NCBI RefSeq assembly: GCF_000379465.1
Contig: NZ_KB905381.1
Location: 62,001 to 126,000 of the forward strand
Direction of reading: 5' to 3'
From: Sciscionella marina DSM 45152
GTDB lineage: Bacteria; Actinomycetota; Actinomycetes; Mycobacteriales; Pseudonocardiaceae
Length of the DNA: 64,000 nt
The translations under genes were made by a program, and so were the position numbers. The notes under the pieces were generated by a model. That model did no database searches. It was not told the origin of the DNA and saw nothing but the letters and a program-made list of their open reading frames with translations. The stretch's first letter is position 1. Every line of letters starts with the position of its first letter. This document shows, in pieces, positions 29,259 through 52,643 of this stretch.

Positions 29259-29399
29259 GGCATGCGCAGGCAGGGCGGCGTACGCTCGTCGTCCGCGGGA
29301 GCCGGATGATCGCCACCGTGTCGCGGTTGACTGCCTGTCTGTTTATTGTGTGTGTGGCGATGGTGTTGGTGTGGTTTTTGTTTGGCAGGGAGGGTGCGA

Positions 29400-30293
29400 A
29401 TGTCGGTTGTCTATGAGCATCTTGAGTCGCTTTATCCGTTGGGTTGGCGGTGTTTTCGGATCGAGTTGCCTTGGCTTCCGCCGCGTAGTCACGTTCATCC
29501 TGAGTTCGAGTTGACGTGGACTGTGCGTGGATCGGGCACGCGTTTGGTTGGGGAGTCGGTCGAGCAGTTCGAGTCTGGTGATCTGGTGTTGATAGGTCCG
29601 CATCTGGTCCATACACATGCAACGGTCCCGGAGAGCGGGCCGGTGGAGTTGATCGTTGTCCAGTTCACGAGGGACATTCTTGGTGAGCGGTTCTTCGATC
29701 AGCCGGTTTTCGCTGAGGTTGCCGCGCTGCTGGATGCTTCGACCGGCGGGCTCAGATTCGCCGAAGCGCCCCCGATGCTGGCGACCCTTGATGATCTTGC
29801 GCCCGCGGAAAAGACCGTCGCGCTGCTGGACATCCTCGTGACCCTCAGCCGGGGACCCTACGTTCGGCTCACCGCAGGGCAGCCGTCGTCTGTCACCACC
29901 AGTGTGCTCCGGATCGAGACGATCGTGGCGTATGTACACCAGCATTTCTGCTCGCCGATCACGTTGCCTGACATCGCCGATGCGGTAGATATGAACCCGA
30001 GTGCTGCGAGTCGGCTGTTTTCCCGATCGACCGGCTTCACCCTTACCCGGTTCATCACCGTCGTGCGGCTCAACGCCGCATGCCGCCTCCTGCAAGACAC
30101 AGACCTGCCGATCGCGACCATCGCATCCAGATGTGGCTTCGGGAACCTTTCGAACTTCAACCGGCGATTCCGCGAGGTCAAACAGACCACACCGAAAGCA
30201 CACCGCGCGTTGCTTCATACCGGTCGCGCAGGAACAACCACCCAGGAACACCTCCCCGATGGGAAACGAGCCGCGGCATTCTTCGCGGGATGA
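29400..30293 (+). CDS. AraC-family transcriptional regulator with N-terminal cupin, 297 aa
   Basis: Paralogue of the regulator at 6.7 kb. The cupin part reads HPEFELTWTVRGSGTRLVGESVEQFESGDLVLIGPHLVHTH. The DNA-binding part has ITLPDIADAVDMNPSAASRLFSRSTGFTLTRF and the AraC signature ASRCGFGNLSNFNRRFREVKQTTPKAHR. The ATG at 29400 has GGGAGGG upstream. It precedes the dioxygenase gene in the same direction with 171 bp between, which is where an activator site would be expected. Upstream DNA (29.30-29.40 kb) is unusually T/G-rich for the window. Confidence 0.9.
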   Translation: MSVVYEHLESLYPLGWRCFRIELPWLPPRSHVHPEFELTWTVRGSGTRLVGESVEQFESGDLVLIGPHLVHTHATVPESGPVELIVVQFTRDILGERFFDQPVFAEVAALLDASTGGLRFAEAPPMLATLDDLAPAEKTVALLDILVTLSRGPYVRLTAGQPSSVTTSVLRIETIVAYVHQHFCSPITLPDIADAVDMNPSAASRLFSRSTGFTLTRFITVVRLNAACRLLQDTDLPIATIASRCGFGNLSNFNRRFREVKQTTPKAHRALLHTGRAGTTTQEHLPDGKRAAAFFAG

Positions 30294-30464
30294 CCGGACC
30301 CCGGAAGTAGAAACCCCCACGGGCATGTGGCAACACCGCGGAACCGTTCCACACGTGTTCGGCGACAACGCTCTGCTGGATTCGTCCGCCCCAGCACTAG
30401 GTGAAGGTGTGTGCGGAACCGACTACCAGTCGACGACCGGACGATGGTCTGTTATCTTGGCGGT

Positions 30465-31247
30465 ATGAATGAAGTAACGACTCTTGAAACGGTGAACCTC
30501 GATGGCGTCGCTGCCGCTCTTGAGCGCGACGGGTTTGCCGTGGTGCCGGATGTGCTGTCGCCGGAGGAGGTCGATGGGGCGGTGGAGCGGCTTTGGGCGG
30601 CGAGCGAGGAAAGTCGGCGCAGGGGTAACGCGAGTCATGTCCAGGATGTTGATCCGAACGCGAGCAATGTACGGGTGTTCAACCTGATCGACCTTGATCC
30701 GTTGTTCGGTGAGCTGATCCAGCATCCAGTCGCTGACGCGATTGTGGAACGCTGCCTTGGTAGCAACTATGTCGTCAGCAACTTCACCGCCAACATCGCG
30801 CGTCCCGGCAGCGGATCGATGATGATCCACTCCGACCAGGCCTCGGTGGTACCGGAACCGTGGGCGCAGCCGTGGGCGATCAACATCATCTGGTGCCTGT
30901 GCGACCTCCGAGGCGAGAACGGTGCCACCCGACACATCCCCGGCAGCCACCAATGGGCATCGACGAACGAGATGCCAGACGAGCTCGAACCGCTCCTCGT
31001 ACCATTCGAGGCGCCAGCCGGGTCGATCGTGGCAATGGAAGGCCGGGTCTGGCACACCTCCGGTGCGAACATCACCGAAAACGAGGACCGCCCACTCGTA
31101 TTCGGCTACTACACAACACCATTCCTACGACCACAATGGAACTTCAGTGCCGCCCTACAACCCGAAACGCAAGCACAATTCACTCCGACAATGCGCTACC
31201 GACTAGGACTCGACCCCTGGCTCAATGTAGCAAAGCCGCCCAACTAA
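30465..31247 (+). CDS. Phytanoyl-CoA dioxygenase (PhyH)-family protein, 260 aa
   Basis: Predicted Fe(II)/2-oxoglutarate-dependent oxygenase. ALERDGFAVVPDVLSPEEVDGAVERL is the usual N-terminal helix-strand. The iron facial triad appears as His and Asp in MMIHSDQ and a late His in GRVWHTSGAN, with a following Arg (EDRPLVFGYY) for 2-oxoglutarate. The sequence motif RHIPGSHQW is typical of PhyH proteins. A TATCTT box ends 6 bases before the ATG, so the mRNA may be leaderless. Related enzymes hydroxylate lipids, ectoine or natural products; the substrate is unknown. Regulated, by position, by the adjacent AraC. Confidence 0.9.
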   Translation: MNEVTTLETVNLDGVAAALERDGFAVVPDVLSPEEVDGAVERLWAASEESRRRGNASHVQDVDPNASNVRVFNLIDLDPLFGELIQHPVADAIVERCLGSNYVVSNFTANIARPGSGSMMIHSDQASVVPEPWAQPWAINIIWCLCDLRGENGATRHIPGSHQWASTNEMPDELEPLLVPFEAPAGSIVAMEGRVWHTSGANITENEDRPLVFGYYTTPFLRPQWNFSAALQPETQAQFTPTMRYRLGLDPWLNVAKPPN

Positions 31248-33950: not shown

Positions 33951-34802
33951 ATGACCGCGAGAATCCTCGACGGTAAGAAGCTCGCTGCAGAGATTCTCGA
34001 TCACACCCGCGAGGAGGTGGATCTATTTCGTGAACGGACCGGGTCGGTCCCCGGACTGTCGACCGTCCTCGTCGGCGACGACCCGGCTAGCGAGGTTTAT
34101 GTCGCGGGCAAGCGTCGAAAGGCCACAGCTGCGGGCATGGCCGACTTCCACCAACACCTGCCCGCAACGGCGACGGAGTCCGAGGTGGCGGCGATGCTTG
34201 AGGAGCTCGCGGCAGATTCGCGCGTGTCCGGGATCCTGCTGCAGCTCCCGCTGCCTGGTTACCTAGATGCAGCGTCGCTCGTCGAGCGCATCCCCGCCCA
34301 CAAGGACGTCGACGGGCTGACAACGGCGAGCGCCGGTTTGCTCGGGCGGAAGTTGCCAGGCCTGCGCCCGTGCACACCGCAGGGAGTCGTCGAGTTGCTC
34401 GACGCCGCCGCGATCGACGTGGCGGGACGGCGCGCCGTCGTCGTAGGCCGGTCGATGCTGGTCGGTGCTCCGCTAGCACAAATGCTGACCCATCGCGACG
34501 CGACCGTGACGCTCGCCCACTCCCGCACCAAAGACCTGGTCGGGGTCACCCGCTCCGCCGACATCCTCGTCGCTGCGGCCGGAGTCTCCGGCCTGATCAC
34601 CGCTGCACATGTCGCGGAGGGCACGGTCGTTGTCGACGTCGGGATCCACCGCACTCCGGACGGTTTGGTCGGTGACGTCCGGTTCGACGAGGCGCGCGAG
34701 CGTGCCTCATGGATCACCCCGGTTCCCGGTGGCGTCGGGCCGCTCACGATCGCGATGGTTCTGCGCAACACCGTGCAGGCCGCGCAGTATGCCGCCGACT
34801 GA
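33951..34802 (+). CDS. folD: FolD: methylenetetrahydrofolate dehydrogenase/cyclohydrolase, 283 aa
   Basis: Bifunctional cytosolic enzyme interconverting 5,10-methylene-THF, methenyl-THF and 10-formyl-THF with NADP(H). Family features in order: VGDDPASEVYVAGKRRKATAAG with the catalytic Lys, ILLQLPLPGY, HKDVDGLTTASAGLL, CTPQGVVELL, VVVGRSMLVGAPLAQML for the nucleotide, HSRTKDL, and PVPGGVGPLTIAML-like PVPGGVGPLTIAMV. Length is standard. It heads a group of folate genes and is convergent with the VOC gene, 10 bp away. A second, housekeeping folD would be expected elsewhere, so this copy probably serves the local one-carbon pathway. Confidence 0.95.
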   Translation: MTARILDGKKLAAEILDHTREEVDLFRERTGSVPGLSTVLVGDDPASEVYVAGKRRKATAAGMADFHQHLPATATESEVAAMLEELAADSRVSGILLQLPLPGYLDAASLVERIPAHKDVDGLTTASAGLLGRKLPGLRPCTPQGVVELLDAAAIDVAGRRAVVVGRSMLVGAPLAQMLTHRDATVTLAHSRTKDLVGVTRSADILVAAAGVSGLITAAHVAEGTVVVDVGIHRTPDGLVGDVRFDEARERASWITPVPGGVGPLTIAMVLRNTVQAAQYAAD

Positions 34803-34812
34803 GCAGGACGGG

Positions 34813-35595
34813 TCACCGGGGACCCATGCCCGACAGACCACCGTGCCCGGCGGTGCCCGGCTGAGCCAACGAGCGCCCGTCCCACAGCCCGAATAGCCCT
34901 CCCCACGAGTCCTGCAGGAGCGCGTACTCACCGGTTGGGCTGGGTGATCGGGGCACGACGACCCAAGCGCCGAGCGCGGTCGCCCGGGCGATTCCGCGGT
35001 CGACCGTCGGATAATGAAAGTACGGCAACCACTGCGCGGGTGTCGCCGGTTCCAGGAACGACGTCATGTCGAGGATTCCGGCGACGTGCGTGCCGGCTGC
35101 GCTCAGCATGATGTAGTCCGACGGTTCGTCGGGTAGCACGTCGGCCCGCAGATCGAGCGCGGACGAATAGAACGACGTGGCGTCGGCGACCTGCCGGGTG
35201 TAGAGGTCGGCGAGTACCACGTCGTGGGTGCCGGGGTCCCGGTGCCCGGTTCCGACCGACCACAGCTCGAACAGTGCCCCGTCGGGGTCCCGGATCCGCA
35301 GCGCTCCGTCATGCGATCTGGCCGACTGCACTACGGCGCCCGCCGCCGTGCACCGCTCAAGCGCGGCCGGCACGTCTGCCACGGCGAAGCCCACGATCCA
35401 ACGGGAGACGTCTGAGGGGTGTGAGTGAGCGATCCGCTGCCGGGCGGTCGGGAGCGTCGAGTCGCCACTGAAGGCGGCGGCACGTGGGCGTCCGGCGAGT
35501 GCGGAGTAGAAGTCGTCGGCCGAAGCCGGGTCGGGCGAATCGAGCCGCAGCGAGCACATCGTCGTCCTGGCCACTGCGTACCTCTCGGTGTTCAT
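34813..35595 (-). CDS. VOC-superfamily protein with two tandem modules, 260 aa
   Basis: Glyoxalase/bleomycin-resistance/extradiol-dioxygenase fold. Two repeats are visible, each beginning with a FYSALAG/FYSSALDLR segment: residues ~10-115 (SPDPASADDFYSALAG ... IRDPDGALFELWSVG) and ~125-250 (DLYTRQVADATSFYSSALDLRADV ... LLQDSWGGLFGLW). Candidate metal Glu in the first repeat is in LFELWS. Members of this short two-module type include two-domain isomerases and hydroxyketone-type enzymes. The start overlaps the PucR stop (ATGA), so the regulator and this enzyme form an operon pointing at folD. Confidence 0.85.
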   Translation of the reverse strand: MNTERYAVARTTMCSLRLDSPDPASADDFYSALAGRPRAAAFSGDSTLPTARQRIAHSHPSDVSRWIVGFAVADVPAALERCTAAGAVVQSARSHDGALRIRDPDGALFELWSVGTGHRDPGTHDVVLADLYTRQVADATSFYSSALDLRADVLPDEPSDYIMLSAAGTHVAGILDMTSFLEPATPAQWLPYFHYPTVDRGIARATALGAWVVVPRSPSPTGEYALLQDSWGGLFGLWDGRSLAQPGTAGHGGLSGMGPR

Positions 35596-36731
35596 CCGAT
35601 CCTTCCCTCATTCCGTGCGGTGCTCGCTCCCGGGGGCCGGTCCCCGTACCGGGTTGCGATCCAGAAATGCATCCGTCCATCGAAGGTGTCCGGACTCCAC
35701 CCTGTCAGTTCGGCAATCATGTTGAGTCGGTAGCGGAGGGTGTTGCGATGGACGAAAAGGCGTTCGGCCGCACGGGACGCTGAGCAATCGGAATCCAGGT
35801 AGGTGACCAGCGAGTGGACGAGTTCGCTGCCCGTCCGCTCGTCGTGCACGGTCAGCGGCTCCAGGGCGCGCACACCGAACTCCCGCACTGGCACTGTGTC
35901 GGCCGATCCCAATAGAAGGTAGCCCAGGTTGAGCGGACGGGCATGATGCAGCCCGGCAACCGACGCCGCCTCGCGCGCCTGGTGGTAGCTCATCGCAAGC
36001 GAGACGGGATCCGACACCATGGGGCCCACCCCGACCGAGGCGTCCGGGTCCGCGGCCCGCAGGTGTTCCAGCAGCATGCCGGCGATGGTCGGTACGGGAT
36101 CCGCGCTGGGCACGACCAGGACGAGGTCGTCGTCGACGGTAGCGCGGACGTACGGGTCGCCGCGGCCGGCGAGGAGCGAGTGGAGGTTCCACGGACGGCT
36201 GCGTAGCCTGGCTCCGGACAATGTGGATCGTCCAACCAGGACGGAGTAGCTGATCTGCGGGCCCGGCTCGATGCCGATCGTCGAGAGCCGTTCCCGAGCC
36301 TCCTCGCCAAGGCTGCGCCCGCGGAAGACGTCCTCGAGTATCTGCCCGGCCCGTTCGCGTCGACCTGTCAGCAGCGCCTGCAGCCGGGCGAGCTCCAACG
36401 TTGCCAGGTGCGAGGCCATCCGGAAATAGGTCCGGTCCGCCTGTTCGGGCGAGACGACCAGCAGCGCCACCACATCACCCTCCAGAACGACAGGGAACAG
36501 CGCACGTGGCGGGGTTCCCAGCTGCTCCACCCCGGGGCGCCACGACCGCAGATCCTGCAGCGGCCACGGGGCGCGGCTCGGTACCGACGCCAGGAGGCTG
36601 CCACGGACGTCGACGAAGGCGGCCGGAGCGGAGGTGACGCGGCGCAGGACGGCCAGCACACCAGCGAGACCGGCGCCGTCGGTCAGCGCGCGGCACATCG
36701 CGAGCAGTTCGTCGGCTTCGCTCACGCCCAC
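35592..36731 (-). CDS. PucR-family transcriptional regulator, 379 aa
   Basis: Helix-turn-helix activator of the PucR/CdaR type. The C-terminal HTH reads SASRAAERLFVHRNTLRYRLNMIAELTG, and a central GGDEF-like segment precedes it. The N-terminal ~130 residues form a GAF-like sensor (VTSAPAAFVDVRGSLLASVP). The GTG at 36731 was chosen because GGGAGG lies 5 bases upstream; an overlapping ATG there is out of frame, and a longer frame upstream would run into purU's promoter. It is divergent from purU and is the probable activator of the one-carbon operon. Classic PucR controls purine degradation, which agrees with the NCS1 permease here. Confidence 0.9.
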   Translation of the reverse strand: MGVSEADELLAMCRALTDGAGLAGVLAVLRRVTSAPAAFVDVRGSLLASVPSRAPWPLQDLRSWRPGVEQLGTPPRALFPVVLEGDVVALLVVSPEQADRTYFRMASHLATLELARLQALLTGRRERAGQILEDVFRGRSLGEEARERLSTIGIEPGPQISYSVLVGRSTLSGARLRSRPWNLHSLLAGRGDPYVRATVDDDLVLVVPSADPVPTIAGMLLEHLRAADPDASVGVGPMVSDPVSLAMSYHQAREAASVAGLHHARPLNLGYLLLGSADTVPVREFGVRALEPLTVHDERTGSELVHSLVTYLDSDCSASRAAERLFVHRNTLRYRLNMIAELTGWSPDTFDGRMHFWIATRYGDRPPGASTARNEGRIG

Positions 36732-36921
36732 ATGATCCTCCCTCTGCCCACATGCCGTCACCTGGGGCGAACGGATGCATTCGGTTCTTGTCGTCAATCG
36801 TTCACGTGAACGACGGCAGTCGGAGGTGTTGGGCATGTGCACGATGCGCCGGCTCGTTCCCGACCGCGACAGTGTCAACCGACACCGCCGACGAGATGCG
36901 CTCGCTCGGCAGCCGACCCCA

Positions 36922-37836
36922 ATGGCGGACACGGTCATGAAACAGAACTCTTCGGGCTCCGCGGTGACGAACGCGGCAACCCGACGTTGTGCACGAATGC
37001 GGATTCGAGTCACCGGTGGCGACCGCCCCGGTCTCGTCGCCACCCTGACGGGCGTGTTGCACGAGCAGGGGGGCAACATTCGCGAGTCGAGTCAGTTCAG
37101 CACAGACCCGGACGACGGTGCGTTTTTCCTGCGCATGGTCGTTGACGTATCGCATGACACCGTCGATGCGTTCTCCGAGCGGGTCCGGCAGGTCGTCGCC
37201 GAGCTGGGGATGACCTGCGAGCTGCGATCCGCGGATCGGCGCAAGCGGATGGTCGTGCTCTGCTCGACCGGTGATCACTGCGTGCTTGACCTGCTGTGGC
37301 GGACGCAGACCGACGACCTCCATGCCGACGTCCCGCTCGTCGTGTCCAACCACGACAAGCTGCGCACGCCGGTGGAGCAGTTCGACGTGCCGTTCTACTA
37401 CGTCCCCGCGGACCCCACCGACCGGAGCCGTTCGGAACGGCGGATCCTTGATCTGATCGGGTCGGCCGACGCCGACGTCGTCGTGCTGGCGCGCTACATG
37501 CAGATCCTCAGCGAGGATTTCCTGCAGCACCTCGGCGTCCCAGTCATCAACATCCACCACTCGCTGCTTCCGGCGTTCGTCGGCGCCCAGCCATACCGGC
37601 GGGCGTACGAGCGAGGCGTGAAGATCATCGGTGCCACCGCCCACTACGCGACCCCCGAGCTCGACGCAGGTCCGATCATCGCCCAGGGCGTCGAGAACGT
37701 CGGGCACACCGCAGATGCCGCCGCGATGGCGAAGCTCGGTCGCAACGTTGAGCAGACTGTGCTGGCCCGGGCGGTCCGGCTGCACGTCGACGACCGTGTG
37801 CAGGTCCACCGCAATCGGACGATCATCCATGTCTGA
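36922..37836 (+). CDS. purU: PurU: formyltetrahydrofolate deformylase, 304 aa
   Basis: Hydrolyses 10-formyl-THF to formate and free THF. The N-terminal ACT domain reads IRVTGGDRPGLVATLTGVLHEQGGNIRESSQFS. The C-terminal formyltransferase-like domain has VPLVVSNHDKLR, VVLARYMQILSEDFLQ, and the catalytic INIHHSLLPAFVGAQPY with the late ATAHYATPELDAGPIIAQGVE. Asn, His and Asp of the active site are present. The ATG at 36922 is a reasonable start; 36937 is also possible. Overlaps the next gene by 8 bases. In bacterial demethylation pathways (for example of dimethylglycine or DMSP) PurU regenerates THF, which fits the neighbours. Confidence 0.94.
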   Translation: MADTVMKQNSSGSAVTNAATRRCARMRIRVTGGDRPGLVATLTGVLHEQGGNIRESSQFSTDPDDGAFFLRMVVDVSHDTVDAFSERVRQVVAELGMTCELRSADRRKRMVVLCSTGDHCVLDLLWRTQTDDLHADVPLVVSNHDKLRTPVEQFDVPFYYVPADPTDRSRSERRILDLIGSADADVVVLARYMQILSEDFLQHLGVPVINIHHSLLPAFVGAQPYRRAYERGVKIIGATAHYATPELDAGPIIAQGVENVGHTADAAAMAKLGRNVEQTVLARAVRLHVDDRVQVHRNRTIIHV

Positions 37837-38887
37837 GCCATCCGCGGTGCGCGGCGCCGAACATATCCTCATCGTGTTCTGTCATCCGCTGGCCGACTCC
37901 TTTGGGGCTCGGCTGTTGGAGGAGTACACGACCGGGCTTACCGAGTCAGGTCGCTCCTACGAGGTGGCCGACCTCTACGCCGAGGGCTTCGATCCGGTCT
38001 TCCACGCCGCGGATTACGTGCAGTTCGAGGGCGGCCCCCTTCCCCAACGGCTCCTGGAGGAACAAGCGCGGGTGGAGCGGGCGGACGCGATCGTCGTCAT
38101 CAGCCCGCTGTGGTGGCTCGGTACGCCCGCGATGCTGAAGGGCTGGTTCGACCGAGTCTGGAGCAATGGCTGGGCCTACGAGTTCGCGAACGACCCGGAG
38201 GGCAGCCTGCTGCCCCTGCGGCCTTACCTGTTCCTCATGACGACCGGTGGTTCGGCCGGCAGTTTCGACCGCCGCGGCTACGCCGACGCACTCGATGCGC
38301 TCATCCGGGGCGGAATCCTCGGATGGTGCGGTGTGAGTGAGTCGAGCGTCGTTCTGTTGCACGACACGGGGTTCGACGTCGAGACGACCGGCGCGCACCT
38401 CGATTTCGCCCGCGCCACCGGTGCCGGAGCCACGGTGGTCGACCGCGCCCCGTCTCCCGATCCGGCGCGCATCACCGTCCTGAACCGTCCGCTGCCGGCA
38501 CGAACACGAAGGAGTCCTACCGCGATGGATGCTCAGACCGCCATTCGCTCTTATTGCGACGCCTGGGTCGCGAAGGACAACGCCGGGATCGCGCAGCTGT
38601 TCGCCGAGGGAGGAGTCTTCGTCGACCCGCTCCATGAGCGTCCACTCATTGGCCCGGACGACATCTCACGCACGAACCAGTCCGCTGTCGATGAGCTAGA
38701 CGACGTGCACATCGAACTCTTCATGGTGCGGGGCGCCGGTGACTGTGCCGTTGCCGAGGGCCGGATGACCGCGAAAGTCATCGGCGGCGGCGCCCTGGAT
38801 TTCGAGTTCGCCATGGTCGCCGAGACAGCCAATGGTCTGATCACCCGGCTCACCGAGTACTTCGATACCTCTGCGCTGCAGTCCTGA
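37829..38887 (+). CDS. Flavodoxin-fold NAD(P)H oxidoreductase fused to a SnoaL-like domain, 352 aa
   Basis: The first ~225 residues match the NAD(P)H quinone reductase/KefF/MdaB group: ILIVFCHPLADSFGARLLEEY for the flavin, then ADAIVVISPLWWLGTPAMLKGWFDRVW and LFLMTTGGSAGSFDR. After a short linker, the last 120 residues (MDAQTAIRSYCDAWVAKDNAGIAQLFAEGGVFVDPL ... LDFEFAMVAE) form an NTF2/SnoaL domain. The junction contains GAAGGAG and an in-frame ATG at 38525, as if two coupled genes had lost the stop between them. Both forms may be made. The reductase could supply reduced flavin or reduce a quinone-like intermediate in the one-carbon cluster. Confidence 0.82.
   Translation: MSEPSAVRGAEHILIVFCHPLADSFGARLLEEYTTGLTESGRSYEVADLYAEGFDPVFHAADYVQFEGGPLPQRLLEEQARVERADAIVVISPLWWLGTPAMLKGWFDRVWSNGWAYEFANDPEGSLLPLRPYLFLMTTGGSAGSFDRRGYADALDALIRGGILGWCGVSESSVVLLHDTGFDVETTGAHLDFARATGAGATVVDRAPSPDPARITVLNRPLPARTRRSPTAMDAQTAIRSYCDAWVAKDNAGIAQLFAEGGVFVDPLHERPLIGPDDISRTNQSAVDELDDVHIELFMVRGAGDCAVAEGRMTAKVIGGGALDFEFAMVAETANGLITRLTEYFDTSALQS
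38525..38887 (+). CDS. Possible internal start: free SnoaL-like protein, 120 aa
   Basis: ATG at 38525 with GAAGGAG 9-15 bases upstream, in frame with the flavodoxin-fold gene. A separate product MDAQTAIRSY... would be a complete SnoaL/NTF2-fold protein of normal size. The ribosome-binding site inside a coding frame is the evidence that this was, or still is, its own gene. Not counted as certain. Confidence 0.5.
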   Translation: MDAQTAIRSYCDAWVAKDNAGIAQLFAEGGVFVDPLHERPLIGPDDISRTNQSAVDELDDVHIELFMVRGAGDCAVAEGRMTAKVIGGGALDFEFAMVAETANGLITRLTEYFDTSALQS

Positions 38888-38930
38888 TCTGCGGCCGCCA
38901 CCCCGACCACCCGACTCTGGAGGTTTCCCC

Positions 38931-40046
38931 ATGTCGCAGCCCGTCCGCCAGAACCTGATGTACATCACTCGCCGATCGCCGTACTTCGAGCGCACGCTCG
39001 CCGAGGGCGCCCTGGAGTGGGGCGTCTACAACCACACCTACATGCCGTTCGTCTATGACAACGACCCACGTGCGGAATACGACGCCATGGTCTCCGGTGT
39101 CACCCAGTGGGATGTCGGCGCCGAGCGTCAGGCCGAGTTCCGAGGCCCCGACGCACTGAAGTTCGCCGACTACCTCGCTCCGCGGAGTTTGTCGAAGCTG
39201 CCGGTCGGAGGGTGCAAGTACACCCCCCTCTGTGATCAGAACGGCAAGATCATGTCGGAGATCATTGTGCTCCGGCCCTTCGAAGACGTGGTCTGGTTCT
39301 CGCACTCCGACGTGGACGTCTCGCTGTGGGCTTATGGCCTGGCCCAGGCCGGCAGGTTCGACGTCGAGGTCGCCGAGGCCGACATCGCCCCCTTCCAGAT
39401 CCAGGGCCCCAAGGCTCGCGACGTACTGGCTCCGCTCGTCGAGGCCGACCTGGCGTCGCTGCGCAGGTTCCGCTGTGTGGTGACAAAGCTCGCCGGTGTC
39501 GACGTCGTCATCTCCAACACCGGCTGGAGCAAGGAAGCCGGTTATGAGGTCTACCCGATCGGCACCGCCGGTGCCGTCGAGGCGTGGGACGCGGTCCGCG
39601 AGGCCGGCCGTGAGCACGATCTGCTCGTCACCGGACCGAACCTGAACCGGGCAGTCGAGCAGGGAATCCTGGACACCCAGTACGCCACCAACTCCGACAT
39701 GGACCTGCTCGAGGCCGGTCTGGGTGGCTTCCTCGACCTCGACGGCGAGGACTTCATCGGCCGCGACGCGCTGCGGAAAGTCCGCGTGGAAGGCCCCCGC
39801 CGCAAGACGATCGGCCTCGTCTCCGACAACGCCGAGTGGCCGCTGTTCGAGGGCTTCTGGCCGCTGCAGGACAACGCGTCCGGCCAGCAAGTCGGCATCG
39901 TGCGGTGGGCGGTGTGGTCCTACGCCCTGGAGCGCAACATCGCCGTCGCCCTAGTCGACGCCGCAGTCGGCGAAGCCGATGAGTTCACGATCGTGAGCCC
40001 CACTGGAGAGCACAAGGCCAACGTCCACCCCGTCCCGTTCATCTGA
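38931..40046 (+). CDS. GcvT/DmdA-family tetrahydrofolate-dependent methyltransferase (demethylase), 371 aa
   Basis: Folate-binding aminomethyltransferase-fold enzyme. Matches to DmdA (DMSP demethylase) recalled from memory: VYNHTYMPFVYD, VTQWDVGAERQAEFRGPDALKFADYLAPRSLSKLPVGGCKYTPLCDQNGKI, IQGPKARDVLAPL, GWSKEAGYEVYPIG, EAGLGGFLDLDGEDFIGRDAL and terminal HPVPFI. Length equals DmdA (~369). Glycine-cleavage GcvT has a different N-terminus, and no gcvP/H gene is nearby. The expected reaction moves a methyl from a substrate to THF, giving 5-methyl-THF. A metF-like reductase follows, which supports methyl transfer. The substrate is unknown; DMSP is only one possibility. RBS GGAGG before the ATG. 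Confidence 0.88.
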   Translation: MSQPVRQNLMYITRRSPYFERTLAEGALEWGVYNHTYMPFVYDNDPRAEYDAMVSGVTQWDVGAERQAEFRGPDALKFADYLAPRSLSKLPVGGCKYTPLCDQNGKIMSEIIVLRPFEDVVWFSHSDVDVSLWAYGLAQAGRFDVEVAEADIAPFQIQGPKARDVLAPLVEADLASLRRFRCVVTKLAGVDVVISNTGWSKEAGYEVYPIGTAGAVEAWDAVREAGREHDLLVTGPNLNRAVEQGILDTQYATNSDMDLLEAGLGGFLDLDGEDFIGRDALRKVRVEGPRRKTIGLVSDNAEWPLFEGFWPLQDNASGQQVGIVRWAVWSYALERNIAVALVDAAVGEADEFTIVSPTGEHKANVHPVPFI

Positions 40047-40083
40047 TCGGCCGGACCCGGCCGAACGAGAGGAGTAATCCGTC

Positions 40084-40950
40084 ATGACTGTCGAGCCCGA
40101 GCAGCCGGCCCCGCTGGAAGCCCGGTCCTTACGTGAGCGGTCGCGGATCGAGGTGATCCCGCTTCCGTCGCTGAGGAAGCGGCTCGACGCTATCCCGGCA
40201 GGAGCCCGGCTGTCGGTGACCTGTTCGCCCAGCGAGGGGGTCGACGCGAGCGTCGAGATGACCGCCCGTCTGCGCGACGCCGGTCACGACGCAATTCCGC
40301 ACCTCTCAGCGGGAACCGTCACGAGTCGGGAACAACTCGCAGGTATCGTCCGCCGGTGCGACAGGATGGGGGTGAACGAAGTCTTCTTCATCGGTGGGGA
40401 CGTTCGTCAGGGTGGGCCCTTCCAGAACGCGCATGAGCTCGCCACTGCCTACGCCGCGGCGAGCTCGGCTCTCCGGGTGCTCGGTTTCGCCGGATACCCG
40501 GAAGGGCACCCCACGATCAACGAGCACACCCTGGTGACCGCGCTGCACCAGAAGCAGGAGCTTGTGCACTCAGCGGGCCTCGACGGCTACGTGTCGACCC
40601 AGATGTGTTTCGACGGTCGGGCCGTCAGCAAATGGGTCGCCGACCGACGGGCGCGCGGATTGACCCTGCCCGTCCGTTTCGGTGTTCCAGGCCAGGTCGA
40701 CAGGCTCAAGCTCATGACGATCTCCGGCCGGCTGGGAATCGGGAACTCCCTCAAGTTCCTTCGCAAGAACCGGTCGTCGGTCACCAAGCTGATGTCCTCA
40801 CCGACGTTCCGACCGGACGACCTCGTGGCCGAGGTACTCGGCGCGAGCGTCGCAGATCCCACCGCAACGGTCGACGGGCTGCACCTCTTCTCGTTCAACA
40901 ACCTGGCGCCGACCTTCACCTGGTTCGGCGCCTTCACCTCGGCACACTGA
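40084..40950 (+). CDS. Methylenetetrahydrofolate reductase-like (MetF-family) protein, 288 aa
   Basis: FAD-dependent TIM-barrel enzyme family interconverting methyl- and methylene-THF. Recognisable parts: SVTCSPSEGVDASVEMTARLRDAGHDAIPHLSAGTVTSREQLAGIV, EVFFIGGDV, LGFAGYPEGHPTI, and TQMCFDGRAVSKWV with the active Gln-Met-Cys-Phe-Asp segment. Length is typical. It lies 38 bp after the DmdA/GcvT-like gene and 42 bp before the permease. In a demethylation route it would run in the oxidative direction, turning methyl-THF to methylene-THF, which FolD and PurU then take to formate. Confidence 0.88.
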   Translation: MTVEPEQPAPLEARSLRERSRIEVIPLPSLRKRLDAIPAGARLSVTCSPSEGVDASVEMTARLRDAGHDAIPHLSAGTVTSREQLAGIVRRCDRMGVNEVFFIGGDVRQGGPFQNAHELATAYAAASSALRVLGFAGYPEGHPTINEHTLVTALHQKQELVHSAGLDGYVSTQMCFDGRAVSKWVADRRARGLTLPVRFGVPGQVDRLKLMTISGRLGIGNSLKFLRKNRSSVTKLMSSPTFRPDDLVAEVLGASVADPTATVDGLHLFSFNNLAPTFTWFGAFTSAH

Positions 40951-40991
40951 CCATTCGCGCCCGTCAACGACGACGGAGAGGAGTAGTCCCG

Positions 40992-42425
40992 ATGACACAG
41001 GAACGCAGTCCTGCGATCGAGACCCGAACGGTCGAGCACATCCCGCTCGGGGAGCGGCACGGCAAGGCCCTGGAGATGTTCACCATCTGGTTCGGGACGG
41101 GACTCACACTCGCCGCGACGGCGACCGGGTTCCTGGCCACCTCACTGTATGGCCTGCCCTGGTGGGCGGCCGTGTCGGCCCTGATGGTCGGCTGCCTGGT
41201 CGGCGGCTTCGTCATGGCCCTGCACGCGGCGCAGGGGCCGCAGACCGGTGTGCCGCAAATGCTGCAGACCCGGGCGCAGTTCGGCTCGTACGGCAGCCTG
41301 CTCGTCATCGTGCTCGTGGTGCTCATGTACGTCGGGTTCTTCGCCTCGAACCTGGTACTCGGCGCGCAGTCCATCTCGGCACTGACCACCGTCGACGACA
41401 CGACCGCCACGCTGGTCATCGGGACCGTGTCGACGGTGGCGGCGGTCGTCGGATACCGGCTCATCCACCGGCTGGCCGGCGTCATGAGCATCGTGGCAGG
41501 CGCTGCCCTGCTGCTCGCCTTCGTTTGGGCTCTGGGAGTCAACGGAGTCGATCCCGCCACCTGGACGGCCGGGACGGTGACCGGGGTCGGCATCATGGGG
41601 GCGATCTCGCTCGGCAGCCTGTGGCTGATCGCCTGCGCCCCGTTCGTGTCGGACTACACCCGATACATGCCCAAGGATACCGGGGTGCGCGCGTCGTTCT
41701 GGGCGACCTACTGGGGTGCGGTGCTGGGCGCGATCGTGCCCATGGCGCTGGGTGCGCTGATCGGATCCGCACTGGGTGACAGTGACACGGTCACCGGACT
41801 GACGGTGCTCGTGCACGGCATCAGCCCCGTGGTCATCGTCGTGCTGAGCGTGGCCCTTGTGTCCCAATCCGCCATGTTCGTCTACTGCGGTTCACTGTCG
41901 ACGATCACCATCGGGCAGACGATGTTCGAGAACTGGAATCCGCGCGCCGGAGCCCGCACCTGGGTTTCGGTGATCATCTTCGCGGTGGCGACGGTGATGG
42001 CACTGTTCGGCCGGGACAACTTCCTGGTGGTCTTTTCCAGCTTCCTGCTCACCCTGCTCTGCGTCCTGATCCCGTGGACCGCGATCAACCTCATCGACTA
42101 CTACGTCATCCGGCACGGCGAGTACGACCTCGAGGACATGTTCCGGCAGGACGGGGGGCGTTACGGGCGATTCAACACCCCCGCCGTCGCGTCGTACGTG
42201 CTCGGGATCCTGGTCCAGGTACCGTTCCTGAGCACCACGATGTACACCGGACCGCTGGCTGCCGCCATCGGCGGCGTCGACGTCTCGTGGATCGTCGGTC
42301 TGGTCGTGACCTGTCCGCTCTACCTCGTGCTGATGCGCAGGCGTCGCACGAGCACCACCCCGCCCGCGAGTGCGCCGAGCACCACGCGGGGCGAGGGGGA
42401 GACCGCTCCACCGGTCGGCACCTAG
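40992..42425 (+). CDS. NCS1-family permease, 477 aa
   Basis: Membrane transporter of the nucleobase:cation symporter-1 family, about 12 helices. The signature region has FTIWFGTGLTLAATATGF and GLPWWAAVSALMVGCLVGGFVMALHAAQGPQTGVPQMLQTRAQFGSYG, with ACAPFVSDYTRYMPKDTG in the middle and INLIDYYVIRHGEYDLEDMF late. Known members import purines, pyrimidines, hydantoins, allantoin, thiamine or pyridoxine with sodium or protons. The substrate of this cluster is therefore probably a small N-heterocycle, perhaps methylated. Last gene of the purU operon, ending 61 bp before the LysR gene. Confidence 0.92.
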   Translation: MTQERSPAIETRTVEHIPLGERHGKALEMFTIWFGTGLTLAATATGFLATSLYGLPWWAAVSALMVGCLVGGFVMALHAAQGPQTGVPQMLQTRAQFGSYGSLLVIVLVVLMYVGFFASNLVLGAQSISALTTVDDTTATLVIGTVSTVAAVVGYRLIHRLAGVMSIVAGAALLLAFVWALGVNGVDPATWTAGTVTGVGIMGAISLGSLWLIACAPFVSDYTRYMPKDTGVRASFWATYWGAVLGAIVPMALGALIGSALGDSDTVTGLTVLVHGISPVVIVVLSVALVSQSAMFVYCGSLSTITIGQTMFENWNPRAGARTWVSVIIFAVATVMALFGRDNFLVVFSSFLLTLLCVLIPWTAINLIDYYVIRHGEYDLEDMFRQDGGRYGRFNTPAVASYVLGILVQVPFLSTTMYTGPLAAAIGGVDVSWIVGLVVTCPLYLVLMRRRRTSTTPPASAPSTTRGEGETAPPVGT

Positions 42426-42486
42426 AAGCGGCGACCGTTCGGGTGCCGACACCCGTGCATTCTGTTCGCGGGGAGGACACCGCCGG

Positions 42487-43410
42487 ATGGCTGAATTCAC
42501 TTTGACACAGCTGCGCTATTTCGTTGCCGCCGCGTCGACCGGGAGCATGACAGCGGCCGCCATCGACCTGCGGATCGCACAGTCCGCGGTATCGACGGCG
42601 GTCGGCGGGTTGGAACGGTCACTGGGCGTCCAGCTGTTCATCCGCCAGCATGCCCGGGGGCTGAGCTTGACCGGCGCGGGCCACCGACTGCACGTCGCCG
42701 CGCAGGAGCTGCTCGGGCTCGCAGCCGGTCTGGAGGAGACCGCGAGAGGTCTTGCAGTCGCTGCGACCGGCGACATCGCCTTCGGTTGCTTCGTCACACT
42801 CGCACCGTTCGTGATGCCCCAGATCCTGCGGTGGTGCGCCGAACGACACCCGCGGCTGAATCTGAACGCACGCGAACTCGACACTCCCGAGATCACGGCC
42901 GAGTTGCAGGAGGGGCGGATCGAGATCGCTCTGATGTATGACCTCGCACTTGGCACGGGCATCGAACGACACCGGATCGGCTCTGTACCGCCCTACGTCA
43001 TCGTCGCGCCGGACCACCGGCTGGCCAAGGCGCCGGGCATCCACCTGTCCGAGCTGCAGGACGAATCGATGGTCATGCTCGACATCCCGCACAGCGCCGA
43101 GTATTTCGCGGGCCTCATGCGCGCAGCCGGGGTCCAACCGAAGGTTCAGCATCGCAGCACAAGCTACGAAACCGTGCGCAGTCTAGTCGCCCAAGGGCTC
43201 GGCTACGCTGTCCTCAATCAGAGACCCACGTTCGCCACGACCTACAGCGGCGAGTCGGTCGTCTCGTTGCCGCTGTTCGACAATGTCGCCGACCTGCCCA
43301 TCGTGCTCGCCCGGATCGCGCACACCCGACCGACCGGACGAGCACAGGCGGTCGCCCAGGCCTGCGCGGCAGTACTACCCGGCGGCGACGGAACTATTTC
43401 CATCGGTTGA
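42487..43410 (+). CDS. LysR-family transcriptional regulator, 307 aa
   Basis: HTH at ~6-65 (FTLTQLRYFVAAASTGSMTAAAIDLRIAQSAVSTAVGGLERSLGVQLFIR), then the periplasmic-binding-protein-like effector domain (GCFVTLAPFVMPQILRWCAERHPRLNLNARELDTPEITAELQEGRIEIALMYD). GGGGAGG lies 11 bases before the ATG. It reads in the same direction as the one-carbon operon, so it is probably co-transcribed. Together with PucR upstream, two regulators may control the cluster. Confidence 0.93.
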   Translation: MAEFTLTQLRYFVAAASTGSMTAAAIDLRIAQSAVSTAVGGLERSLGVQLFIRQHARGLSLTGAGHRLHVAAQELLGLAAGLEETARGLAVAATGDIAFGCFVTLAPFVMPQILRWCAERHPRLNLNARELDTPEITAELQEGRIEIALMYDLALGTGIERHRIGSVPPYVIVAPDHRLAKAPGIHLSELQDESMVMLDIPHSAEYFAGLMRAAGVQPKVQHRSTSYETVRSLVAQGLGYAVLNQRPTFATTYSGESVVSLPLFDNVADLPIVLARIAHTRPTGRAQAVAQACAAVLPGGDGTISIG

Positions 43411-43872
43411 GCCACCCAGGCACCGGTGGAACAGGTATTTCCCCGGCGATGCAGGTTTTCGGAACACGCACGAGGTCAGGGCTGAAACCCGGTCGTGATC
43501 CTCACCGACACCAACCAGCCTGTGCGGCAGATTCGTCAGCACGGTAGGCAGCCTTCTCTGGCCGCTGAGATGGTGATGATGGACCTCCCCCGAAACCGTG
43601 GAGGGTTTGGTGTGCCCCGAGGGTCGTGGAGTCGGTGATTTGTCGCGGCAGGTTGGGTTATAGCGATCATCGCTACGGCGCATCAGTAGAACGGATGCAC
43701 CACGGTTCTGTCGGCAGCAGAAGCAACTGCCGTCGGCGAGTCGCTCGACAGTCTCCTCGCGAAGCTCGGCCTTGTCTTGTCGAGCTTCCAGTGTCGAGCG
43801 TCGATGTGCGCGTTCGATGCGGCACATCAGGGCACCTGGGTAGCTCGCGTCGGTAAACGGCTTTGAGCACAC
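43411..43872. other. About 460 bp without a recognisable gene
   Basis: Between the LysR gene and the palindromic promoter. Open frames on either strand are short, without a plausible start, and show no domain. GACCTCC at 43582-43588 pairs imperfectly with GGAGGG at 43602-43607. No IS ends or RNA gene recognised. Confidence 0.45.
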
Positions 43873-43900
43873 TTGACCAATACACGACGTCGTGTATTGT
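43873..43900 (+). promoter_or_regulatory. Leaderless promoter of the hydrolase/ligase operon
   Basis: TTGACC (43873-43878), 16-base spacer, TATTGT (43895-43900); ATG of the hydrolase at 43908, seven bases after the -10. Transcription would therefore begin at or next to the start codon, and no ribosome-binding site is visible. The spacer is filled by a 22-bp palindrome. Confidence 0.65.
43878..43899. promoter_or_regulatory. Perfect 22-bp palindromic operator
   Basis: Half-site CAATACACGAC (43878-43888) followed directly by its exact complement GTCGTGTATTG (43889-43899), no spacer. It covers the spacer and -10 of the promoter, the best place for a repressor. The TetR gene at the end of the same operon (48.4 kb) is the likely binder. 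No second copy was seen in the window. Confidence 0.75.
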
Positions 43901-43907
43901 TTTTTGC

Positions 43908-44813
43908 ATGCCGCTCGATCAAGCTGCCGCCGCCTTCATTGAGAACGCCGCCAGCAAACCGTCGAAGCCGTTGTCAGAGACCTCGGTGGCGCAGATGCGT
44001 GAGTCGGTCGATGCGTTGATCCCGCTCGGGTTCGAGCGGGAGGAGGTCCATGCCGTCGAGGACTGGGTGGTCGACGGTGTCGCAGTGCGTAGCTATGTTC
44101 CCGGTGCCCAGTCGTTGGGGAACGTGGTCTATCTGCATGGCGGTTCGTTCACCCGATGTGGACTGCATACCCATGACACCCTGTGTCGCCGGCTGGCCAA
44201 TCGCTCTGGTTGCACCGTCGTCGCGGTCGAGTTCTCTCTTGCTCCCGAGGCGACCTACCCGCGCCAGCTGGATGAAGTCGCCGGCGTTGTGGCGGCTGTT
44301 TCGCGCTCCGAGCCCGGGCAGAAGCTGTTTGTGGCCGGGGAGTCCAGCGGTGGCTGTCTCGCCGCCGCGACGACGCTGCGGGCGCATGACCGAGGCACTG
44401 TACGCGTGGACGGTCTGATGTTGCTGTTGCCCGTGCTGGACCGAGATTCTGGGACGCCGTCGCGGCATGCGCTGAATAAAGACTACCTGCTCACCGATGA
44501 ACAGATGGACTGGATGTTCGAGCAGTACGCCCCGAACGTCGGAGACGACGATCCGCTGGTGTTTCCGTTTCGGGCACCTGCCCTGCACGGGTTCCCACCC
44601 ACCGTCGTAGTCACCGCCGAGTTCGATCCGCTGCGCGATGAGGGGCGGGTGTTCGCCGAACGTATCCGGGCGGCGGGCGGCCATGCCGAGTATGTGTGCG
44701 TTCCCGGCATCATCCACCACGCGCCGCTAGTGCCGAAGCAGATTCCCGCGGGCGCGCGTGTGGTCGACGACGCCGGCGAGCTGCTTCGTGAACTCGCGAG
44801 TTCAACGCGGTGA
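43908..44813 (+). CDS. HSL-family alpha/beta hydrolase, 301 aa
   Basis: Esterase of the hormone-sensitive-lipase type. Oxyanion HGGS (YLHGGSFTRCG; third Gly to Ser), elbow GESSGG with Ser ~147, acid in VTAEFDPLRDEG, His in GIIHHAPL. VAVEFSLAPEATYPRQLDEV matches the family. ATG at 43908; an upstream GTG/ATG frame at 43863 would cross the operator. First gene of an operon with an acyl-CoA ligase, amidohydrolase, MIP18 and Dabb genes. It likely frees a carboxylic acid that the ligase then activates. Confidence 0.92.
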   Translation: MPLDQAAAAFIENAASKPSKPLSETSVAQMRESVDALIPLGFEREEVHAVEDWVVDGVAVRSYVPGAQSLGNVVYLHGGSFTRCGLHTHDTLCRRLANRSGCTVVAVEFSLAPEATYPRQLDEVAGVVAAVSRSEPGQKLFVAGESSGGCLAAATTLRAHDRGTVRVDGLMLLLPVLDRDSGTPSRHALNKDYLLTDEQMDWMFEQYAPNVGDDDPLVFPFRAPALHGFPPTVVVTAEFDPLRDEGRVFAERIRAAGGHAEYVCVPGIIHHAPLVPKQIPAGARVVDDAGELLRELASSTR

Positions 44814-44858
44814 CCCGAGCGCGTTCCATTCCCGCCAAGAAGACGACGAGGTCCTCGG

Positions 44859-46418
44859 ATGATGCTCATTGACTATATCGATCGTGGGGCGGATACGGCT
44901 CCTGATGCTCCGTGTCTGCTCGACCCGGATGGATCGACTGCCATGACCCATGCGCAGTTCCGTGTTCTGACCCATCGCATCGCCGGCGCCCTCATCCGCG
45001 ATGGTGTTCGGCCCGGCGACCGCATCGGCGTTCTGAGTAGCAACCATGCGTTGACGTTCGCGTTGGTGATCGGGATCCTGCGTGCGGGGGCAGTATGGAC
45101 CGCGATCAACGTCACCTCCGGATCGGCTGATCAGGCTGATTTTCTCGGTATGGTCGGATGCCGGCGGATAATCTGCCATCGGGATTTCGCTGGCCGAGCC
45201 GCCGAACTCGAGCAGCGGATTGTGATCCGCGACCCGGCACTGGTGTTCGGCCCGGAGCGCGACGGTGGGCTGGCCTTCACCGAATGGCTTGCGTCGCAGG
45301 ACTTCCGCGCACCGGAACCGGCCTTTGAACCCGAGCGCGTGGCCATGCTGCTCCCGACCGGCGGTACAACGGGGCGATCGAAGGCAGTACCCATCACCGA
45401 CCGCCAAATCCATCTCATGTGCCTGGCGTTCCAGATCCATCTCCGCGAACCCGCGCCACCCCGGTACATCTGCGCCACGCCGATGACTCATGCCGCCGGG
45501 CTGGTGTGCCTACCGGTGCTCGCGCAGGGCGGCGCGGTGATCGTGCACAACGGTGTGCTGCCCGAACAGGTTCTCGGATCGATCGAACGAAACCGGGCCT
45601 CGGCGATCTTTCTTCCACCGACCGCGTTATACAAGCTGCTCGCCACCCCGGGTGTTCGTGAGTACGATTACTCCTCGCTACAGCAGCTCCTGATCGCGGG
45701 TGCTCCACTGGCACCCGAGCGGCTCGCCGAGGCGGTCGAGGTGTTCGGACCGGTGCTGACTCAGACCTTCGGGCAAGCAGAGGCCCCGCTGATCTGCACC
45801 GTCCACGAGGCATCGGAGGTGGCTGCCGCCGCTGCAGATCCATCGCTTGGTCATCGTCTGGCCTCGTGTGGCAGACCATCGGCGATCGCCCGGGTCGAGA
45901 TCATGGACGACGACGGCAATCTGCTCGGGCCCCGACACAGCGGCGAGATCGTCGTGCGATCCGAGCTGGTTTTCGATGGTTACTGGCAGGACCCGGCGGC
46001 GACGGCGTCGACCCGCAGGCCGGGGGGATGGTACGGGACCGGCGATGTCGGTGTCCGTGACGACGAGGGATTCGTCTACATCGTCGATCGCAAGAAGGAC
46101 ATGATCATCACCGGCGGGTTCAATGTGTTCCCGTCCGAGGTAGAGGCTTACCTGCACACGTTTCCGGCAGTGGACGACTGCGCCGTCATCGGCCTGCCCG
46201 ACCCGAAATGGGGGGAGACCGTCACCGCGGTGATCGAAACCAAGCCTGGCTCGCACCTCGACGAACAGGCACTCATCGAGGCTTGCAAAGCGCATCTGGG
46301 TCCGGTGAAGGCCCCGAAAAACATCATCGTGCGCGATCTTCCGCGCTCAGGCGTCGGCAAGGTGCTCAAGCGCGAGCTGCGCGAGGAGTACTGGGCGACG
46401 AGCACGCGCCGGATCTGA
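44859..46418 (+). CDS. AMP-dependent acyl-CoA synthetase/ligase, 519 aa
   Basis: ANL-superfamily ligase. The P-loop is LLPTGGTTGRSKAVP (~165-180; the usual TSGTTG is TGGTTG). YATTP-like ICATPMTHAAG, GQAEAPLICT, the YGTGDVGVRDDEGFVYIVDRKKDMI hinge, and GGFNVFPSEVEAYL follow. The C-terminal catalytic Lys is in RSGVGKVLKREL. Start at 44859 or the adjacent Met at 44862. Medium-chain or aromatic acid substrates are typical; the acid could come from the hydrolase ahead. 45 bp after the hydrolase gene. Confidence 0.93.
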   Translation: MMLIDYIDRGADTAPDAPCLLDPDGSTAMTHAQFRVLTHRIAGALIRDGVRPGDRIGVLSSNHALTFALVIGILRAGAVWTAINVTSGSADQADFLGMVGCRRIICHRDFAGRAAELEQRIVIRDPALVFGPERDGGLAFTEWLASQDFRAPEPAFEPERVAMLLPTGGTTGRSKAVPITDRQIHLMCLAFQIHLREPAPPRYICATPMTHAAGLVCLPVLAQGGAVIVHNGVLPEQVLGSIERNRASAIFLPPTALYKLLATPGVREYDYSSLQQLLIAGAPLAPERLAEAVEVFGPVLTQTFGQAEAPLICTVHEASEVAAAAADPSLGHRLASCGRPSAIARVEIMDDDGNLLGPRHSGEIVVRSELVFDGYWQDPAATASTRRPGGWYGTGDVGVRDDEGFVYIVDRKKDMIITGGFNVFPSEVEAYLHTFPAVDDCAVIGLPDPKWGETVTAVIETKPGSHLDEQALIEACKAHLGPVKAPKNIIVRDLPRSGVGKVLKRELREEYWATSTRRI

Positions 46419-46483
46419 TCCGACTCCCGAGACAAGTCCTCGTGCCGTCTCGTCCGACGGTAAACAACCACCATAGGAGGTCA

Positions 46484-47578: not shown

Positions 47579-47985
47579 ACCCGACGCGGAGTGACCCCAC
47601 GGTAAGCGAGGATTTCCGCACCGCGATCGAGAACGCGATCGCCAAGGTCGACGACCCGTGTAGCATCGCGGCCAACGCGCCGATGAGCGTGCTCGATCTG
47701 GGACTAGTCAGGGAATGGCACCTCGACAGCGAAGGCGCGGTCATCGTCACCGTAAGTCCCACGGCACCCTCCTGCGTACTCATGGCCTCCATCGCCGAGG
47801 GAATCGAAGCTCGCATCGCTGAGGTCGAGGGAGTCCACGCTGTTCGCGTGGAGATCGACACCGTCACGATGTGGACCCCCGACCTGATGACCGAAACCGG
47901 CAGACAGACGCTGGAGGAGCGCCGGTCTACCTCCCTGATCAGTGTTCCCATCTACCCTCGCCAATGGGAGCACAAGCTCGAGTGA
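47575..47985 (+). CDS. MIP18/PaaD-family (DUF59) protein, 136 aa
   Basis: Small protein of the metal-sulfur-cluster assembly family. MSVLDLGLVREWHLDSEGAVIVTVSPTAPSCVLMASIAEGIEARIAEVEGVHAVRVEIDT carries the family core, with the Cys of TAPSC in its usual place and DLGLVR before it. The C-terminal extension ends PIYPRQWEHKLE. Such proteins help mature Fe-S or di-iron enzymes. ATGA overlap with the amidohydrolase gene; the next gene starts 71 bp later. Confidence 0.88.
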   Translation: MNPTRSDPTVSEDFRTAIENAIAKVDDPCSIAANAPMSVLDLGLVREWHLDSEGAVIVTVSPTAPSCVLMASIAEGIEARIAEVEGVHAVRVEIDTVTMWTPDLMTETGRQTLEERRSTSLISVPIYPRQWEHKLE

Positions 47986-48055
47986 GGCGCGCGTAGACGG
48001 TGTTCGGCGGTGTGTTCAGGCGGCCGCCGAATCCGATCCGGACAAGGAGCTGTAC

Positions 48056-48367: not shown

Positions 48368-48439
48368 GCGGATAGATCCGCACCGGCGAGGCGGGGCGTC
48401 AATGCGGCAAAGCGCCGGACCAGGCTAGAATCCACCTCG

Positions 48440-50709: not shown

Positions 50710-50729
50710 ATCACCATGGTCGCACGTTG

Positions 50730-50749
50730 CGCTCAAGTTCACTTGAGCG
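50730..50749. promoter_or_regulatory. MerR-type (SoxR-box-like) palindrome
   Basis: CGCTCAAGT-TC-ACTTGAGCG: 9-bp perfect arms with a 2-bp spacer. The core CTCAAGTT..ACTTGAG matches the SoxR consensus (CCTCAAGTTAACTTGAGG) almost exactly. It sits between the divergent MerR and FAD-monooxygenase genes, as expected for a MerR-type activator site. Confidence 0.75.
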
Positions 50750-50787
50750 AGCACGGTGGACACCCCGTGATCAGTGAGGAGAACACC

Positions 50788-52617: not shown

Positions 52618-52643
52618 ACTGTCGGTGACGGCGGTATGGCGCG

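Follow-up and report, generated by a model that had tools for sequence, protein, structure and literature searches.

In the described histamine/imidazole-4-acetate (ImAA) pathway, HinFLHG (in Pseudomonas aeruginosa, PA5393 hinF, PA5392 hinL, PA5391 hinH, and PA5390 hinG) convert ImAA to aspartic acid, HinF being a FAD monooxygenase (EC 1.14.13.5), HinL an enamine deaminase, and HinH and HinG amidases, while HinI is an aspartate ammonia-lyase, HinD an aldehyde dehydrogenase (ALDH), and HinK a LysR regulator (PMC8231116, PMC6467879). HinK responds to ImAA (PMC8231116). In methyl-group catabolism through tetrahydrofolate (THF), growth on chloromethane requires metF and purU (PMC3621897), and the Dmt and Dmt50 demethylases are severely inhibited by methyl-THF (PMC9404685). 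Here, we analyzed a 64,000-nucleotide window of the Sciscionella marina DSM 45152 genome (contig NZ_KB905381.1, positions 62,001 to 126,000), in which a predicted DmdA-like demethylase is encoded together with folate enzymes, an NCS1 permease, and a LysR regulator resembling HinK. Our analysis gives good support to a dedicated folate-dependent demethylation and leans towards an N-demethylation module that feeds ImAA catabolism.

The predicted demethylase belongs to a separate DmdA-like clade

Scored against NCBIfam models, the 371-amino-acid protein encoded in the window is closest to dimethylsulfoniopropionate (DMSP) demethylase, with 239 bits compared to 146 for trimethylamine N-oxide (TMAO) demethylase and 120 and 100 for the GcvT models. 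It remains below the curated cut-off of DmdA (410 bits), as it does for the GcvT model TIGR00528 (100 bits versus 236) and for the LigM and DesA models (51 and 50 bits versus 580 and 800). Among solved structures, the top relative is the DMSP-dependent demethylase of P. ubique (3tfh, 167 bits), the best GcvT-type entry scoring 102. In a tree of 33 rows, which has several long branches and unsure deep joins, the window protein forms a clade of four on a long stem (support 100/100) with proteins from Amycolatopsis jejuensis (82% identity), Psychromicrobium silvestre (78%), and a Thermoleophilia metagenome-assembled genome (MAG, 61%). This clade stands separate from a dmdD-linked homologue, from an actinobacterial group to which the paralogue of the window's genome belongs, and from the GcvT of that genome. 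An earlier, sequence-only reading of this DNA had treated the DmdA/GcvT-like protein as a DmdA-type enzyme and had named grouping with true GcvT, together with a need for GcvH, among the outcomes that would refute it; the protein does not group with the GcvT of its genome.

Three residues, W199, E206, and Y208, are kept in all four orthologues and match, in our own mapping by spacing, the W, E, and Y described in the DmdA clade (PMC7487153). Judging from its sequence, the protein should work like DmdA, yet it does not qualify as DmdA itself. Two AlphaFold models built from 4 and 3 sequences were poor, with predicted local distance difference test (pLDDT) values of 50 and 51; Foldseek comparisons using them, at template modeling (TM) scores of about 0.3, restate the families, with two T-protein entries just above 3tfh. 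A profile search located seven GCV_T places in the genome, the best at 302 bits and the window protein at 110. The paralogue lies on contig C46 (locus 374000-393999), where the gene order is GntR regulator, the DmdA-like paralogue itself, MetF, formate-THF ligase, DAO-GCV_T oxidase, and electron transfer flavoprotein. Of 20 loci of this paralogue type, 17 have a MetF gene no more than 1.5 kb from the DmdA-like one, and the locus is a candidate for encoding a glycine betaine demethylase that uses THF.

Extra folate genes and conservation of the neighborhood

The FolD, MetF, and PurU proteins of the cluster are additional copies, as the genome encodes in total two FolD, three MTHFR-family proteins (one a canonical MetF of 306 bits on another contig), and two proteins above the PurU cut-off. 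The presence of all three beside the methyltransferase supports the dedicated demethylation loop put forward in the sequence-only reading, and we consider this part of the assignment highly probable. Draining methyl-THF makes sense because Dmt and Dmt50 are inhibited by this product and because both metF and purU are essential on chloromethane.

A scan of named genomes, which relies on exact short peptides and can miss members, returned three close relatives of the demethylase and a remote one. At E≤1e-90, the protein is present in 2 of 390 genomes of the family and 1 of 296 of the phylum, the window's genome counted in, and the second family genome agrees in position with A. jejuensis. With relaxed thresholds, homologues occur in 13 of 60 relatives (E≤1e-40) and in 15 of 394 class genomes (E≤1e-60), own genome included; the query aside, they are 36-44% identical. 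The flavodoxin-SnoaL protein was detected at E≤1e-40 in one of 200 family genomes, namely its own.

In A. jejuensis, nine genes are found in the same order with 54-82% identity, including the VOC protein (54%), the PucR regulator (72%), and the LysR regulator (68%). The latter extends the cluster beyond position 42425, where it had previously been taken to end. In Psychromicrobium, which belongs to a different order, the same content is present in a rearranged form: the SnoaL, DmdA-like, NCS1, flavodoxin-fold, MetF, and PurU genes share a strand, and VOC and PucR lie next to them. Identities are 78% for the DmdA-like protein, 76% for the flavodoxin-fold protein, 67% for SnoaL, 64% for NCS1, 63% for PucR, 48% for VOC, 47% for PurU, 45% for FolD, 44% for LysR, and 32% for MetF. 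The genes thus stay together in two distant genomes, whereas the sequence-only reading had counted a lack of conservation among its refuting outcomes, and this conservation appears to be more than chance. The Psychromicrobium MetF looks independently recruited, which would speak for a functional need. Its FolD shares 62% identity with the other FolD of the genome, is thus most similar to the housekeeping type, and could be an incidental neighbor. A broader idea, the new acquisition of the entire folate set by Psychromicrobium, was narrowed: MetF does look unrelated in origin, but FolD is of the housekeeping type.

The flavodoxin-fold and SnoaL domains had been described as a fusion. They do form a single open frame in the window and in A. 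jejuensis, although the SnoaL part could have its own start: the ATG at 38525 is preceded by a ribosome-binding-like AAGGAG, and GGAGGA precedes the SnoaL start in A. jejuensis (9580-9610 of its locus). In Psychromicrobium, they are two separate genes, that of SnoaL immediately preceding the one for the DmdA-like protein. In the Thermoleophilia MAG (11.7 kb of the 26.5 kb contig viewed), SnoaL (38%) is divergent from the demethylase at the contig end. SnoaL adjoins the demethylase gene in all four loci with close orthologues and may be a partner of the enzyme.

Relationship to hin-type genes

The best solved relatives of the window LysR are 3fzv (181.9 bits) and 6m5f, entitled 'Crystal structure of HinK' (180.6 bits), followed by a lone C-terminal domain (101.7 bits) and, as the next full-length protein, OxyR (89 bits); HinK is, by a clear margin, the nearest solved LysR to that of the cluster. 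As controls, a hin-linked Arthrobacter LysR retrieved the same top two at 179-180 bits, and a Phaeobacter LysR near a DmdA-like gene had a different best relative, at 57 bits. The LysR found with the genome's own hin genes shares 50% identity with the window LysR; for two LysR proteins near DmdA-like genes, the value is 23-31%. Likewise, the NCS1 permeases of the window and of that hin locus share 55% identity, and among nine NCS1 matches in A. jejuensis, the nearest after the orthologue is hin-linked (43% versus at most 35% for the rest). The kinship of these two proteins adds independent weight to an imidazole substrate.

In Psychromicrobium, a single block combines the demethylase set with genes for a flavin monooxygenase (FMO)-like flavoprotein, RidA, DUF1028, and an M20 hydrolase, together with ALDH and LysR. 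In A. jejuensis, the same four genes are about 17 kb from the demethylase, in a region also containing a copper amine oxidase, ALDH, and a second NCS1; identities to Psychromicrobium are 70% (FMO), 77% (RidA), 67% (M20), and 53% (DUF1028). The window's genome has FMO, RidA, DUF1028, and M20 (80%, 91%, 75%, and 84% identity to the A. jejuensis proteins, respectively) in order on contig C35, with ALDH, NCS1, LysR, and a Lyase_1 gene. The ALDH there (locus 12032-13259) reads in two frames, compared to one in the sister genome, indicating a frameshift or an assembly error. In order and type, FMO-RidA-DUF1028-M20 match HinF-HinL-HinH-HinG.

The same arrangement is found elsewhere. Fifteen further loci, taken from the 49 family genomes with FMO, all contain the four genes and LysR, with copper amine oxidase in 4 and ALDH in 6. 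Four of 739 matching plasmid records were examined: those of Arthrobacter, Pseudonocardia, and Streptomyces encode FMO-RidA-DUF1028-M20-aspartate ammonia-lyase, Arthrobacter also having a primary-amine oxidase and ALDH, while the Burkholderia plasmid has FMO-RidA-DUF1028, a gene named argE, LysR, and a 'cytosine permease'. The argE-named gene did not match the M20 protein at E≤1e-6. Both demethylase-bearing family genomes also have FMO, for which the chance expectation is about 0.016 (49/390 x 48/389), a supportive but not strong co-occurrence.

A conjugative plasmid of Lichenihabitans psoromatis (approximately 40600-53600) encodes a DmdA-like protein (35%), MetF, PurU, FolD, HinF-like (65%) and DUF1028 (48%) proteins, and amino-acid ATP-binding cassette (ABC) transporter components; neither RidA nor M20 had a match in the sequence stretches inspected. 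It is possibly a parallel assembly. We do not retain it as independent convergence, its DmdA-like protein being 57-59% identical to Phaeobacter/Loktanella proteins encoded beside enoyl-CoA hydratase and acyl-CoA synthetase genes, and regard it as suggestive only.

A proposed pathway

The substrate had been called unknown in the sequence-only reading; the LysR, the NCS1 permease, and the linked hin genes now point to a substrate class, and import of a heterocycle by the permease, as already suggested there, appears probable. Overall, an imidazole substrate is the assignment we somewhat favor. In the proposed scheme, the NCS1 permease would import an N-methylated imidazole acid, most likely tele- or pros-methylimidazoleacetate, with methylhistamine or methylhistidine as close alternatives. 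These compounds are end products excreted by animals. Protonated methylimidazoleacetate resembles DMSP and betaine in combining a methylated cation with a carboxylate, and imidazole should leave reasonably well. The DmdA-like enzyme would pass the N-methyl group to THF, leaving the demethylated imidazole (ImAA). MetF operating in reverse (methyl-THF to methylene-THF), FolD, and PurU would then convert methyl-THF to formate and free THF, and the HinF-, HinL-, HinH-, and HinG-like enzymes of contig C35 and the lyase would take ImAA to aspartate and on to fumarate, with control by the HinK-like LysR and the PucR regulator. We infer the methyl donor, the reaction direction, and the order of demethylation and ring oxidation from this gene set.

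Alternative assignments

Several observations weigh against the imidazole assignment. In the window's own genome, the hin-type genes are unlinked, on another contig, and physical linkage to the demethylase is seen in two genomes only. FMO is present in 49 of 390 family genomes compared to 2 for the demethylase, hin-type genes thus being common without it. An NCS1 gene lies beside them in one of the 15 fetched family loci, in addition to the window's genome, A. jejuensis, and one Burkholderia locus. In the Thermoleophilia MAG, which has the demethylase, no NCS1 match was found, and the Psychromicrobium LysR is nearer to the hin-linked LysR (55%) than to the window LysR. The hin assignment itself rests on families and gene order rather than on alignment to the published HinFLHG sequences, and NCBIfam labels the FMO as MSMEG_0569-like, below cut-off. 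This lack of linkage and wide occurrence of hin-type genes would also fit a THF-dependent demethylase acting on another methylated cation or heterocycle (betaine, sulfonium, pyridinium, or hydantoin), the hin genes being a neighboring catabolic island and the LysR and NCS1 recruited paralogues with other ligands. The fold family does act on sulfonium and O-methyl donors, and the NCS1 range is broad according to the Pfam description. However, the HinK-like LysR inside the cluster, the NCS1 kinship, and the single block in Psychromicrobium argue for an imidazole, and we hold a non-imidazole donor to be the less likely, though still plausible, reading.

More specific assignments are less credible. 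DmdA is the top NCBIfam model, and the genome's own paralogue sits with MetF, formate-THF ligase, and a DAO-GCV_T oxidase, in line with a DMSP or glycine betaine demethylase; but the shortfall from the DmdA cut-off, the separate clade, the absence of dmdB/C/D-like genes among the annotated genes of the cluster, and a transporter of the NCS1 type rather than a betaine carrier make this improbable. An aryl O-demethylase of the LigM/DesA/BrdA kind, with the VOC protein opening the ring, would belong to the same superfamily, in which LigM-type enzymes are known to use THF. It is very improbable considering the LigM score (51 bits versus 239 for DmdA), a VOC protein closest to Rv0577/KbpA-type proteins, and a cluster in which no aromatic ring-cleavage gene was identified. 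The same VOC kinship led us to drop toxoflavin, which had been considered on the basis of the VOC protein plus a reductase. As for an isolated T-protein of glycine cleavage, or folate genes of housekeeping function that share no pathway, the protein does consist of GCV_T domains only; with a separate canonical GcvT (302 bits versus 110), separate MetF, FolD, and PurU copies, and a conserved cluster, we give this explanation hardly any credence.

Gene content and layout

All genes named in the sequence-only reading were recovered at their positions by Pfam and NCBIfam searches (Table 1). The purU, flavodoxin/SnoaL, DmdA-like, metF, NCS1, and LysR genes lie on one strand, neighbors overlapping by 8 bases or being 37-61 bases apart. 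The folD gene is outside this run, separated from it by the VOC-PucR pair in the opposite direction. Upstream of the cluster, at 29346-31247, genes for an AraC-type regulator and then a PhyH-family dioxygenase have no match in the A. jejuensis or Psychromicrobium loci. At 2500-5980 of the A. jejuensis locus, a Fer2/NAD-binding (PaaE-like) reductase, a protein with no Pfam match, and a dihydropteroate synthase are encoded between GntR and VOC.

Table 1. Features of the demethylation cluster, in window coordinates
Feature	Position	Strand	Supporting matches
FolD (methylene-THF dehydrogenase/cyclohydrolase)	33951-34802	+	Pfam 198 and 110 bits; second FolD copy in genome
VOC (Glyoxalase_6) protein	34813-35595	-	Pfam 47 bits; top solved relative Rv0577, 34 bits
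PucR-type regulator	35592 to ~36761 (frame open to 37079, start uncertain)	-	HTH_30 77 bits
PurU (formyl-THF deformylase)	36997-37836	+	328 bits (cut-off 286); Pfam ACT and Formyl_trans_N
Flavodoxin-fold NAD(P)H oxidoreductase	37829-38524	+	Flavodoxin_2 130 bits; NQO-type relatives
SnoaL (NTF2-like) domain	38525-38887	+	48 bits; possible own start
Predicted DmdA-like THF-dependent demethylase, 371 amino acids	38931-40046	+	GCV_T 109 bits, GCV_T_C 37 bits
Divergent MetF (MTHFR family)	40084-40950	+	MTHFR 34 bits; top solved relative 7xg9, 105 bits
NCS1 permease	40992-42425	+	Transp_cyt_pur 173 bits (cut-off 23.5); no PDB match at E≤0.001 (phmmer)
HinK-like LysR regulator	42487-43410	+	Best solved relatives include 6m5f (HinK), 180.6 bits; beyond the range first reported

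Novelty and comparison with known systems

Every part of the cluster is of a known kind. In ranked search results from the open-access PubMed Central (PMC) literature, we found neither this gene combination nor the proposed donor, no bacterial route removing the ring methyl of methylimidazoleacetate, methylhistamine, or methylhistidines among the matches listed (12 of 124 and 15 of 19), and no paper on DUF1028. The sequence-only reading, which named no described pathway with this gene set, is incomplete for the folate part, since MetF, FolD, and PurU behind a catabolic methyltransferase have been described for chloromethane (PMC3621897). Tentatively, and with somewhat less assurance than for the substrate class, we propose a new GcvT/DmdA branch that would transfer the ring-nitrogen methyl of an N-methylimidazole to THF without B12, oxygen, or S-adenosylmethionine, possibly with an NTF2-fold partner, and by which soil bacteria would mineralize methylated histamine and histidine waste via the Hin pathway. 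If true, an aromatic ring nitrogen would join the methyl donors of THF-dependent demethylases, a conserved 'unknown' cluster would gain a substrate and a defined assay would become possible, and NCS1 permeases would be suggested as imidazole-acid importers.

In the MABO-purU-folD operon of Arthrobacter pAO1 (N-methylaminobutyrate), purU and folD likewise neighbor the gene of an N-demethylating, GCV_T-containing enzyme; MABO is a flavin oxidase yielding methylene-THF and hence, unlike the window cluster, works without MetF. The SAR11 DmdA (3tfh) shares with the window protein the fold family, the length, the W, E, and Y positions, and, as predicted here, THF as methyl acceptor. The window protein differs in its separate clade, its 35% identity to the dmdD-linked homologue, its score below the DmdA cut-off, and its neighbors. 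LigM, DesA, Dmt, and BrdA also transfer a methyl or methylene group to THF (PMC9404685, PMC5547118), but from O-methyl aromatic donors, and are distant from the window protein in sequence. In the cmu pathway of Methylobacterium CM4, dedicated folD, metF2, and purU oxidize the methyl group (PMC3621897), the transfer itself being catalyzed by the B12-dependent CmuA/CmuB. Finally, the histamine/ImAA pathway of P. putida U and P. aeruginosa is, in the consulted portions of its descriptions, without demethylase or folate genes; it resembles the present system in the type and order of the partner genes and in the HinK-like regulator that the window cluster contains.

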